Positions 2,300 to 6,040 of a stretch of 64,000 nt of DNA are shown piece by piece (the stretch's first letter is position 1; each line of letters begins with the position of its first letter). The notes beneath the pieces were generated by a model. It had not been told where the DNA came from and made no database searches. It was given only the letters and a program-made list of their open reading frames with translations. The stretch covers positions 197,460-261,459 of the forward strand of contig JAEUKT010000004.1 in NCBI GenBank assembly GCA_016794125.1, read 5' to 3'. This DNA comes from Alphaproteobacteria bacterium (lineage in GTDB: Bacteria > Pseudomonadota > Alphaproteobacteria > Micavibrionales > UBA2020). The position numbers and the translations under genes are program-made.

Positions 2300-2331
2300 G
2301 TCCGGAGAACCTTTTAAGGGATCCTCCGGAC
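2300..2331 (-). terminator. Rho-independent terminator (leftward)
   Basis: An 8-bp stem, GTCCGGAG (2300-2307) pairing with CTCCGGAC (2324-2331), is followed on the minus strand by a run of seven T. It would end leftward transcription coming from the buf operon, whose last gene stops 350 bases upstream, or from a short transcript inside that gap. Confidence 0.75.
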
Positions 2332-2680: not shown

Positions 2681-3445
2681 CTATGCCGCTTTTTTTGCGA
2701 GCAGTTCCTGCTGCAGCAATGTCGCCAGCAGCCGGTCGAGCGATAAGTCTGGCTCCGCGCGCATGCCCGCTTCGGCGGCGAAAGCGAAGGTGGGGTCGGA
2801 TTGCAGGTATTCCAAAAACCGGTAACCACCTTCGCTGATGCTCCAGACGGAAATGTTGTCGCCGGCACGGAAGATTGCGGCGAAGGTTTCGGCGGGTTTC
2901 ATTTCAAAATCTTTCAGCGCCGCGCCTTGCTCGTTCACGCGGCTCCACAATTTATCCACCGGCCAGCCGGAGCGCAGCAGTTTTACATGGGGCTGCAAAT
3001 GCAGTTTCAAATTCACAGGGTCTTGGACAGCGGCCAGATCTTGCGCCGTCAACGGCGTGCGGCGCGGGCTTAAATACGCTTCCTGCGCCAGCCATTCCAG
3101 CCGCGCGACATCGGGCACATAGGCGAACTGGTTCAGGTTCGGCAAATGTTCGAGGAATTCGGGGAAGCCCGCGCCATAGGCATTCATGTCGCCGTTATCG
3201 GGCGGCGCGATGCCGGTGAATTCATGCACGGCGAAAGCCATGAATTTTTCGCCCAGCAGCAGGGCGGTCACGGGAAAGGCCTGGTTGATCACATCGCGCA
3301 GGGTCATGGTCATGTTGTTTTTATACACATTCAATCGTTGTTCGGGCGTAAAGGGCGGCTGGTTTTCAATCGGCAAACCCTCGGCGCTTTCGCCCTTGGT
3401 GATTTTATCCATCATCTGTTTTTGCAGCTCAGGCAGTTTTGGCAT
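2681..3445 (-). CDS. bufC: BufC/HvfC-type RiPP maturation partner (DUF2063)
   Basis: A 254-residue soluble protein with the DUF2063 (HvfC/BufC N-terminal) layout: a helical N-terminus with RLNVYKNNMTMTLRDVINQAFP (around residues 37-58), then FEF-type helices with DVARLEWLAQEAYL around residue 112, and a C-terminal half that follows the same family. In bufferin and related RiPP systems this protein partners the DUF692 iron oxidase and helps it bind the precursor peptide. It is the last gene of the leftward operon; its start overlaps the end of bufB by 17 bases, which suggests translational coupling and a fixed stoichiometry. Family assignment is confident; precise function is from homologous systems. 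Confidence 0.8.
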   Translation of the reverse strand: MPKLPELQKQMMDKITKGESAEGLPIENQPPFTPEQRLNVYKNNMTMTLRDVINQAFPVTALLLGEKFMAFAVHEFTGIAPPDNGDMNAYGAGFPEFLEHLPNLNQFAYVPDVARLEWLAQEAYLSPRRTPLTAQDLAAVQDPVNLKLHLQPHVKLLRSGWPVDKLWSRVNEQGAALKDFEMKPAETFAAIFRAGDNISVWSISEGGYRFLEYLQSDPTFAFAAEAGMRAEPDLSLDRLLATLLQQELLAKKAA

Positions 3446-4298
3446 GTTTCACCCCAGAAATGCGCACGCGGATGGCATCGGCCTTCGCGGCCTCCGCCAC
3501 CAGCAGGGGCAGGGGCGGCAGGTCGGTATCCCATTCGACCAGCGTCGGGATATCGCCGAACCGCGCCAAAGCCTGCGCGTACAAATCCCATACGCCGTCA
3601 TAAACCGCGTGGTTATGCGCATCGATGAAAATGCTGTCGGCGCCAATCGTGTTGACCTGATAGCCGGCCAGATGGATTTCACTGACGATGCCCAGCGGCA
3701 GCGCATCGATATAGTCCGCCGCATCGAAATTCATGTTATGCGCGCTGACGGCGATATTGTTTACATCCAGCAGGATGCCGCAGCCGGTCGCGCGCGCGAT
3801 GTCGGCCATAAACGCCGGCTCCGCCATTTCCTGCCCCGCAAAACGCAGATAGGACGACGGATTTTCGACCAGAATTTTTCGCTGCAGCGTATCCTGCACA
3901 TGGCTGATATTTGCGCAGATGGTTTCCAGCGCTTCGCGCGTCATCGGCAGGGGCAGCAGGTCGGGCAGGGCTTTGCCGTCTGCCGCGTTCCATGACACAT
4001 GTTCGGAGACAAGCGCAGGCTGCACGATATCGACGAGCGTTTTTAGTTTTTGCAGATGTTCAGCTGAAACGCCGCCCGCCGACCCAAGCGACAACCCCAC
4101 GCCATGCAAGCTGATTGGATAGCTCTCGCGGCATTTCATCAGCTGTTCAAACGGCGCGCCGCCGATGCGGAAATAATTTTCGCTATGGCCTTCAAGAAAC
4201 CCGACAGCGGGCTGAGATGCGATAATCGATGCCGCATGCGGGCTGCGCAACCCGATGCCCGATTTTATCCCCGCCTCGATTTTCACGTTCGTTGCCAT
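3429..4298 (-). CDS. bufB: BufB multinuclear iron oxidase (DUF692, MbnB-like)
   Basis: A 289-residue TIM-barrel enzyme of DUF692. The metal-binding signature positions are all present in order: HSENYF near residue 38, HGVGLSLG near 64, SEHVSW near 98, ENPSSYL near 143, DVNN near 176, EIHLAGY near 208, DAHNHAVYDGVWDLY near 225 and VEWDTDLP near 253. The family converts cysteines of a precursor peptide to oxazolone- or thiooxazole-type heterocycles using a mixed-valent iron cluster. The adjacent upstream bufA is its likely substrate and the overlapping bufC its partner. A hairpin in the 82-base gap to bufA may lower bufBC expression relative to the peptide. Confidence 0.88.
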   Translation of the reverse strand: MATNVKIEAGIKSGIGLRSPHAASIIASQPAVGFLEGHSENYFRIGGAPFEQLMKCRESYPISLHGVGLSLGSAGGVSAEHLQKLKTLVDIVQPALVSEHVSWNAADGKALPDLLPLPMTREALETICANISHVQDTLQRKILVENPSSYLRFAGQEMAEPAFMADIARATGCGILLDVNNIAVSAHNMNFDAADYIDALPLGIVSEIHLAGYQVNTIGADSIFIDAHNHAVYDGVWDLYAQALARFGDIPTLVEWDTDLPPLPLLVAEAAKADAIRVRISGVKHAKTA

Positions 4299-4331
4299 GC
4301 TTTATATATAGGCGAAATGCCGCCAAAGAAA

Positions 4332-4369
4332 AAGCCGCCGGAACAGCCTTTCGGCCATTCCGGCGGCTT
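4332..4369 (-). terminator. Intercistronic hairpin / attenuator between bufA and bufB
   Basis: A perfect 12-bp stem, AAGCCGCCGGAA (4332-4343) with TTCCGGCGGCTT (4358-4369), followed on the minus strand by CTTTTTCTTT. It sits just after the bufA stop, so it probably terminates part of the transcription and protects the bufA message, giving much peptide and little enzyme. This role is inference. Confidence 0.75.
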
Positions 4370-4380
4370 CGCGAATTCAA

Positions 4381-4668
4381 TTATTCCGCTTTTTTCTCTT
4401 CTTGCTTCTCTGCGGCGGGGGCTTCTTTGCTGCCGCCGGTCAGCTTGTCGCACAGGCCTTCGGGCACCTTGACCCATTCGGTCTTGTCGCTGTCGGTTTT
4501 CGCGACGCCCGCGCAGGAATGCGCGGCGGTGTTGCAGTCGTTCTTGCCGGCCTTCACGACGCCATAGCATTTTTCGGTCTTGGCTTCGTGGTGTTCGGCC
4601 TGCGCGGCGTTGGCGGCGAAGGAAATGGCGGCTGCCAGCGTGGCGGCGGCGATAACGTGTTTTTTCAT
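4381..4668 (-). CDS. bufA: BufA bufferin precursor peptide (DUF2282)
   Basis: A 95-residue precursor. ATG 4668 is chosen because AAAGGA lies 5 bases upstream and it opens directly with a signal peptide ([19 protein letters not shown], cleavage near NAAQA). The mature part has the four cysteines of DUF2282 bufferins: [19 protein letters not shown] and [10 protein letters not shown]. In studied bufferins these cysteines are partly turned into thiooxazoles and the periplasmic product binds copper. Unlike typical members that end soon after the last cysteine motif, this one has a roughly 15-residue Lys/Glu-rich tail. It follows a SigF-type promoter and precedes bufB and bufC. Confidence 0.85.
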
Positions 4669-4727
4669 GGCTGTCCTTTGGGTTCGGTTGTTGTTGCCGG
4701 GCAAAATACCGCCCGCACGCGATCATA

Positions 4728-4753
4728 TTCGATGTTCGCAAATAATTGGTTAC
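4728..4753 (-). promoter_or_regulatory. SigF-type ECF promoter for bufABC
   Basis: On the minus strand GTAACC (4753-4748), exactly 16 bases, then CGAA (4731-4728). This equals, from memory, the consensus described for the Caulobacter SigF regulon (GTAACC-N16-CGAA). It lies between the nrsF stop and bufA, 60 bases before the bufA start, in front of genes that SigF homologues control. Confidence 0.75.
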
Positions 4754-4762
4754 GCGGCTGCC

Positions 4763-5395
4763 TTATTTTTTCCGTTTTAACAGAATCCGCCCAAGGCCGA
4801 TGCCGATGATAGCAAAGGCGAGGACAGGCAGGTAATGCCAGACCAGCAAATGCGCCGGTTGTTCGTTCGGGCAGGCGAAACGCATGCCGAGCGCGGCGAA
4901 GGAGCCGACGGACAGCGCCAGCGCATAACCCGCCCAGCCGTACCAGACGGGCGCACCGCGCGTCGCCATAAAAATACCGGCGGCGAAGGGAATGATGAAC
5001 AGCAGCGAAAAATCGGTCAGGCAGTTTCGGTATCCGGCTTCCGGCGGCTCTGCCCCGATCTGCCCGGCGATCAGCAGCACCCAGATGAAACTGGCAAGGC
5101 CCAGAATGACGCGCTCCGGCGTGCGGATGCGGGTGTCGGGAACGGAAAGTTTAAATGCGGCATAAGCGGCCAGCATGCCTGCCACGAAAATGGCCGCCGT
5201 CTGGCAGACATGTTCGTTGAACATCACCTGCCAGTCGGCGCGGATGCCCTTGGTGAAAATCGCAATCGCGGCGAAGGTGGCGGCGAGCGACAGGCCGGAC
5301 AGGATGAGCGACAGCGTCAGCGCACCCGCCAGCGGCTTCACGGGTTTCAGGTCCTGCCCCAGCTGTGCGATGAGTTTTTCAGTATCCGTACTCAA
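4763..5395 (-). CDS. nrsF: NrsF/DUF1109 anti-sigma factor
   Basis: A 210-residue integral membrane protein with a short cytoplasmic N-terminus (about 25 residues) and six hydrophobic segments, as in the NrsF (DUF1109) anti-sigma family. Two cysteines, C64 (EHVCQTA) near the second membrane segment and C126 (YRNCLTD), plus C177, sit near membrane boundaries; in Caulobacter NrsF, cysteines are needed for metal sensing. It probably holds the SigF-like factor inactive at the membrane until metal stress. Its start lies 17 bases inside the end of the sigma gene, a coupled sigma/anti-sigma pair. Confidence 0.85.
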   Translation of the reverse strand: MSTDTEKLIAQLGQDLKPVKPLAGALTLSLILSGLSLAATFAAIAIFTKGIRADWQVMFNEHVCQTAAIFVAGMLAAYAAFKLSVPDTRIRTPERVILGLASFIWVLLIAGQIGAEPPEAGYRNCLTDFSLLFIIPFAAGIFMATRGAPVWYGWAGYALALSVGSFAALGMRFACPNEQPAHLLVWHYLPVLAFAIIGIGLGRILLKRKK

Positions 5396-5954
5396 GCAGC
5401 CACTCCTTCATTTTCTTGGTCGCGCGGTGCGCGGTCACTTTCACGGCGGTTTCGGTCATGCCGAGTTTCGCGGCGGCCTCCGCCATCGATAACCCCTCCA
5501 CCCGCGTCATCAGCAGCACCTCGCGCTGCTTTTCGGGCAGCTGGGCCAGCGCCTGTTTCACATCTTTGCCGATCATGGCCTCTTCGGGGGTATTCGCAGT
5601 ATCCTGCATAAAGGTTACAAGCTCGTCGTCATTGATTTCATTTGCGGTTTTTCGGCCATATTTGCGCAGGTAATCGATCATTTTGTGCCGCGCCACGCCA
5701 TACATCCAGTTGCGGAACGGTTGGTCGGGGCGGTAGGTGTGGCGGGCGGCATGGATCGCCAGCAAAATTTCCTGAACGATATCATCGATATGCTCGCGCG
5801 CGAAAAAACGGGCGCGGAGGAAGGCGCGCAAGGGGGGCGTGATTTCCCGCAACAACCGCTGATACGCTGCCGCATCGCCGCCCTGCGCCGCCAGCATCAG
5901 TTGCGGCCATGCGGCTGAGTCGTCTTTCGGGCTGTTGTTTGGTTCAGAAGTCAT
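5379..5954 (-). CDS. sigF: ECF sigma factor, SigF-like
   Basis: A 191-residue two-domain sigma-70 family protein. Region 2 spans roughly residues 25-95 with HIDDIVQEILLAIH (2.2) and the DNA-melting/-10 segment RNWMYGVARHKMIDYLRK; region 4 spans about 130-185 with LPEKQREVLLMTRVEGLS and the helix-turn-helix AAAKLGMTETAVKVTAHR. No C-terminal sensor domain. Pairing with a DUF1109 protein places it with Caulobacter SigF, which responds to heavy metals. The expected target promoter stands just downstream in front of bufA; no copy of that motif is visible upstream of sigF itself. Confidence 0.9.
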   Translation of the reverse strand: MTSEPNNSPKDDSAAWPQLMLAAQGGDAAAYQRLLREITPPLRAFLRARFFAREHIDDIVQEILLAIHAARHTYRPDQPFRNWMYGVARHKMIDYLRKYGRKTANEINDDELVTFMQDTANTPEEAMIGKDVKQALAQLPEKQREVLLMTRVEGLSMAEAAAKLGMTETAVKVTAHRATKKMKEWLLEYGY

Positions 5955-6040
5955 TGTTTTTTATGCGTTAATTCGGTATAGCCACTATGCGCCCATGACT
6001 ATATGATGTACAGAAATTTTTTAACCCGAGGTTTCTTTTG

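Follow-up and report, generated by a model that had tools for sequence, protein, structure and literature searches.

A promoter-like site that matches the consensus of the sigma factor SigF is conserved inside the coding sequence of sigF itself, ahead of the gene for the anti-sigma factor, in bacteria of a Micavibrio-like order. The example described here comes from a 64,000-nucleotide (nt) stretch of DNA from a Micavibrio-like bacterium (the window), in which sigF heads a block of five genes, sigF, nrsF, bufA, bufB and bufC, all on the minus strand. The intragenic site is the part of this system that looks new, whereas physical linkage of such a sigma factor to buf genes has already been described. 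The genes of the block and the internal site are as follows.

5379-5954, minus strand: sigF, extracytoplasmic function (ECF) sigma factor (Pfam Sigma70_r4_2, 62.9 bits; Sigma70_r2, 48.5 bits; the NrsF gene is next to it)
4763-5395, minus strand: nrsF, membrane anti-sigma factor (DUF1109), TTG start (PF06532, 81.7 bits, cut-off 26.8)
4381-4668, minus strand: bufA, 95-amino-acid Buf1 bufferin precursor (PF10048, DUF2282, 77.2 bits)
3429-4298, minus strand: bufB, MNIO (formerly DUF692) bufferin maturase (NCBIfam NF050167 MNIO_BufB, 359.1 bits, cut-off 310; PF05114, 328 bits)
2681-3445, minus strand: bufC, DUF2063 partner protein of the MNIO (PF09836, 62.8 bits, cut-off 27.2)
5593-5618, minus strand: intragenic SigF-type site GTAACCTTTATGCAGGATACTGCGAA, sigF codons 113-121, about 200 nt ahead of nrsF, a putative promoter

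The internal site is an exact match to the SigF consensus of Caulobacter, GTAACC-N16-CGAA. NrsF homologs are encoded in 84 of the 142 genomes of the order, and most of the adjacent sigF genes carry GTAAC(C/T/G)-N16/17-CGAA in the linker between sigma2 and sigma4. Residues encoded between the two boxes vary freely. Synonymous choice at the boxes, by comparison, is fixed: Val is encoded by GTA in 55 of 55 genes (16% in the pooled-gene background) and Glu by GAA in 53 of 53 (background 65%). The bias extends to the flanks, where the preceding Gly is GGC in 93% of cases (background 36%) and the following Leu is TTA in 80% (background 15%); over 123 columns, synonymous bias is strongest for GTA, second strongest for TTA and fourth for GGC. 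The residue before Glu can be Ser, Ala, Asp, Arg, Tyr or Thr, and its codon always ends in C, so CGAA is kept. Within the family to which the window belongs, the motif lies 21 nt earlier, has an N16 spacer and places CGAA in another codon phase. Exact matches occur in 34 of 76 non-redundant sigF genes, whereas permuting synonymous codons within each gene leaves 1.3 on average (maximum 6); for the GTAACN form the count is 55 of 76, versus 4.2 (maximum 12). These data show that the internal site is under selection at the DNA level.

A motif of this kind could in principle be a by-product of protein constraint, with V-T followed by E or N in the sigma linker dictating GTAACC-N16/17-CGAA; the site would then have no promoter role, and the block would be an ordinary SigF-NrsF-buf cluster. 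V-T or E-T followed by an acidic residue or Asn does recur in the linker, E-T-F forms have GAA ACT and not GTA ACC, and some lineages drop the exact consensus. However, protein constraint does not explain why GTA and GAA are the only codons chosen, why C precedes GAA irrespective of the residue encoded there, why the motif is lost in synonymous shuffles, why its codon position and codon phase vary between families, or why it replaces an upstream site (see below). We regard this explanation as quite unlikely, and its simplest form, a mere conserved V-T...E peptide, was rejected on the codon bias and the shuffles.

In E-T-F sigF genes (L019, L020, L022, L138, L141-L143 and L146), the position of the internal site is occupied by GAAACTTT...CGAA, with ACT always used. 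This GAAACT-N16-CGAA may contain a variant form of the -35 box, or the site may have decayed.

Internal and upstream sites exclude one another. In the order, 57 sigF genes have a SigF-type site only internally, 12 have one only upstream, 23 have neither and none has both. The corresponding numbers for 25 genomes of other orders, for which a slightly looser upstream pattern was used, are 5, 8, 12 and 0. Fisher's test gives p = 2e-6 for the exclusion and 3e-8 for the pooled data, both values being uncorrected for relatedness. The window itself is of the internal type, with no SigF-type site upstream of its sigF. Neither kind of site is seen with the sigF-nrsF pairs of genus g38 (L153, L173, L175, L179, L182, L184-L186 and L192), and most of these site-less genomes also lack an MNIO.

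The simplest interpretation of the internal site, suggested by its identity to the SigF consensus, is a promoter within sigF that serves the anti-sigma gene. In the ECF16 pairs that have been studied, those of Caulobacter (PMC3511200) and EcfF-OsrA of Bradyrhizobium (PMC3420878), an autoregulatory promoter instead precedes the sigma gene. On balance, we favor a scenario in which this autoregulatory promoter no longer precedes the sigma gene but has been relocated to within its coding sequence, a change that extends across the Micavibrio-like order and occurs here and there in other alphaproteobacteria. Active SigF would thereby raise only the anti-sigma factor, and joint autoregulation would become pure negative feedback. 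Relocation probably occurred more than once, because families differ in the codons and the codon phase that the site occupies.

In our literature search, which covered few subscription papers, no ECF16 sigma gene was described as having a promoter inside it. A comparable arrangement is rseA P3 of Escherichia coli, a sigmaE promoter within rpoE, 228 nt before rseA, that supplements the one upstream of rpoE (PMC8595263). There too a sigma consensus lies inside the sigma gene, on the same strand and ahead of the anti-sigma gene. However, the anti-sigma families are unrelated, and the two sites that coexist in E. coli are mutually exclusive in the order of the window. The SigF-type site offers a clear natural example of how a promoter-like element can be conserved in sigma coding sequence, its spacing and wobble bases being constrained while the encoded residues drift. 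It also yields a prediction on feedback design, namely that a sigma factor can amplify only its own brake.

Sequence alone would also be compatible with other uses of the internal site. It could bind a different ECF sigma factor or a regulator, or could correspond to an RNA-level element in the sigF-nrsF message, and most of the order has an N17 spacer at this site, compared with N15/16 at the bufA sites there. Nonetheless, the internal site is identical to the ECF16 consensus, and the version of that consensus given for Brucella BcrS accepts an N17 spacer (PMC8315932); regarding an RNA element, an Rfam search of the block matched no family. These alternatives therefore seem unlikely to us, and SigF is the preferred user of the site.

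Four additional elements lie outside the sigF coding sequence.

5984-6012, minus strand: weak sigma70-like sequence, TGTACA-N17-CATAGT, the candidate promoter of sigF, picked out by aligning the upstream DNA of seven family members
4728-4753, minus strand: SigF-type site GTAACCAATTATTTGCGAACATCGAA before bufA, an exact consensus match and putative promoter
4331-4370, minus strand: terminator-like hairpin between bufA and bufB, an 18-base-pair stem followed by TTCTTT
2300-2331, minus strand: terminator-like hairpin between bufC and a TauE/SafE gene, a 12-base-pair stem followed by TTTTTTT

In the alignment upstream of sigF (n = 7), TACATC is invariant or nearly so and CATAGT is present in five members; the TGTACA-N17-CATAGT pair scores under the threshold of the promoter scan. 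The site before bufA, GTAACC-N16-CGAA, is located 60 nt ahead of the start codon, and the window contains two matches to this consensus compared with 0.08 expected. In a tally made by hand on loci from many taxa, a close match ahead of bufA (score ≤1.5) was found at 16 of 22 sigF-adjacent loci versus 3 of 55 that lack sigF. A hairpin plus T run follows bufA in all seven family members, with variable sequence and energies of -24 to -35 kcal/mol. This hairpin fits production of the precursor in excess over its enzymes, presumably through partial termination, and the hairpin at 2300-2331 is the probable end of the unit. Because bufA has both its own SigF-type site and a conserved hairpin behind it, the block is more than one simple operon.

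The domain matches confirm the original prediction, made before this analysis from the letters of the DNA, in its placement of five genes in one direction. Its description of the genes as overlapping holds for sigF/nrsF and bufB/bufC (17 nt each), but bufA touches neither neighbour: gaps of 94 nt and 82 nt flank it and contain the SigF-type site and the terminator-like hairpin. The gene identities and sensor-to-product logic that it proposed are likewise supported, by the domain hits, the exact site before bufA and the cysteines of NrsF. C125 is present in 18 of 18 aligned NrsF sequences and C175, 50 residues away, in 16 of 18. The nrsF product scores below the cut-off of NCBIfam equivalog NF042994 (19.7 versus 300), which was built for close Caulobacter relatives. 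Judging from its partner gene and promoter motif, sigF appears to be of the ECF16 type. The bufA product has a Sec-type signal peptide, as judged by eye, and four cysteines (C34, C45, C52 and C73).

We consider it likely that the block forms an ECF16 (SigF-NrsF) envelope-stress circuit, with the adjacent Buf1 cluster as a target and the internal site providing feedback through the anti-sigma factor only. A housekeeping-type promoter would maintain basal expression of sigF and nrsF, and the membrane protein NrsF, with its two conserved cysteines, would hold SigF. Metal or oxidant stress would inactivate NrsF, and the freed SigF would fire the site before bufA. The downstream hairpin would leave the bufA precursor in excess, while read-through would supply the maturase BufB and its partner BufC for the presumed modification of a peptide that may bind metal. 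Transcription from the internal sigF site would yield nrsF, and bufABC by read-through, with no extra SigF.

SigF probably also acts at distant sites. In the same genome, exact SigF-type sites are found 50-80 nt ahead of genes for a DsbD-type protein, an exported MsrB and MsrA (L010:1501, L014:1501 and L018:1501), which suggests a trans regulon of methionine and disulfide repair. Such sites also precede genes for MsrA, MsrB, DsbD, a ScsC/DsbA-like protein and DUF1223 proteins in relatives, and methionine sulfoxide reductases are among the ECF16 targets reported from Bradyrhizobium and Brucella (PMC3420878, PMC8315932). The bufferin pathway would hence be tied to methionine-sulfoxide and disulfide repair in a single predicted regulon, in an order that is poorly studied. 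NrsF and MNIO occur together in only 9 genomes of the order, some assemblies being fragmented, whereas MNIO is present in 62. Where buf clusters of the order are not linked to sigF-nrsF, a SigF-type site lies 60-150 nt ahead of bufA in 13 of 15 cases, pointing to control in trans. Contrary to the original prediction, the block is thus not self-contained: SigF-type sites stand before msrA, msrB and dsbD elsewhere in the genome, and other families of the order have an unlinked buf cluster with the same site.

DUF1223 genes, whose products are secreted and contain CxxC, have exact SigF-type sites upstream in three genomes (L264, L268 and L277), suggesting that these proteins may take part in the response to thiol or metal stress in the envelope.

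Several observations weigh against the proposed circuit. Three family members (L019, L020 and L022) carry merely a degraded internal site, and three (L020, L021 and L022) lack a good site before bufA. The sequences counted above are related and hence not independent, and the nrsF leader produced from an internal start would be long, about 190 nt. Furthermore, the genome contains nine consensus sites, modestly above the four of a reversed-pattern control, and consequently the regulon assignment rests on coherent gene content and not on counts.

The block is a SigF-NrsF-bufferin system in a colinear form. Systems of this kind, in which a stress sensor turns on production of a copper-binding peptide, are already known. 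In Caulobacter, sigF-nrsF (CC3253-CC3252) adjoins the DUF2282-DUF692-DUF2063-DoxX operon CC3254-CC3257, SigF drives this operon from GTAACC-N16-CGAA, and NrsF requires C131 and C181 (PMC3511200). The window shares the five protein families, their adjacency, the site before bufA and the 50-residue spacing of the NrsF cysteines. In the Caulobacter locus a SigF-type promoter precedes sigF and the operon includes a DoxX gene, whereas the window has its sigma pair and buf genes colinear, has lost DoxX and carries the second site inside sigF. In Cupriavidus metallidurans, DUF2282, MNIO and DUF2063 genes also stand beside an ECF sigma/anti-sigma pair; however, gigPABT and rpoQ-rsqA form a divergon, and a DoxX-type gene, gigT, is present (PMC10304878). 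The gig system is copper-inducible, and its sigma pair is reported to depend on the housekeeping sigma factor (PMC10304878). Buf1 clusters share the DUF2282 precursor, MNIO and DUF2063 genes, and sigma and NrsF genes are recurrent members of them (PMC12452194). Physical linkage therefore does not set the block apart from described systems, contrary to the original prediction; only its colinear orientation is less usual. Bradyrhizobium EcfF-OsrA and Brucella BcrS-AbcS, both ECF16, resemble the window in their NrsF-family anti-sigma factor, GTAAC...CG motif and methionine sulfoxide reductase targets, but no bufferin cluster appears among the reported targets considered here (PMC3420878, PMC8315932).

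DoxX is frequent in Buf1 clusters and counted as core, though not universal (PMC12452194). DoxX (PF07681) is absent from the block and from the whole genome of the window. In five of seven family members (L019-L022 and L024) it lies between bufA and bufB, and it is missing from the window and L023. Since the DoxX-bearing L024 is closer to the window than L023 in the BufB tree, DoxX was likely lost twice within the family.

The original prediction also suggested transfer of the genes as a unit, and the five genes might be viewed as a single transcription unit, self-contained and passed from genome to genome as a cassette. Blocks in which sigF-nrsF and buf diverge, encoding very similar BufB, do exist in Sneathiella, Emcibacter and Nitrosospira, and within this order in L040; for this reason transfer of the divergent version, seemingly between classes, is likely. 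The colinear version behaves differently. All six genomes of the genus and one sister genus have it, and the remaining eleven of the family do not; BufB of the family and L035 forms a supported clade that tracks the genus and is separate from BufB elsewhere in the order. Moreover, the GC content of the block is ordinary (58.6% versus 57.7% for the window), and a plasmid search with NrsF gave no match. Recent transfer of the window copy was rejected on these grounds. Separate promoter sites, an internal terminator and likely distal targets further argue against a single mobile unit, which we judge very unlikely compared with the ECF16 circuit described above. Among loci of the BufB tree, nine are colinear, 12 have sigF-nrsF in the opposite orientation and 80 have no sigF in the stretch covered, some stretches being short.

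The TauE/SafE gene (1466-2236) lies downstream of the block, beyond the hairpin at 2300-2331; on the other side, sigF has a divergent neighbour, an acyl-CoA synthetase-type gene. The closest named relatives are alphaproteobacterial metagenome-assembled genomes, one of them labelled Micavibrio. At L216:2738-4450, and also in L215, L217 and L218, MNIO proteins of 550-570 amino acids are apparently fused to a DUF2063-type partner, with no DUF2282 precursor nearby. Two genomes of the genus (L008 and L009) encode a second, distant MNIO with about 27% identity to BufB and no buf partners, which probably belongs to another peptide pathway. Finally, a metagenome-assembled genome labelled Anaerolineae (L065) bears a buf cluster of alphaproteobacterial type; its label is probably a binning error.

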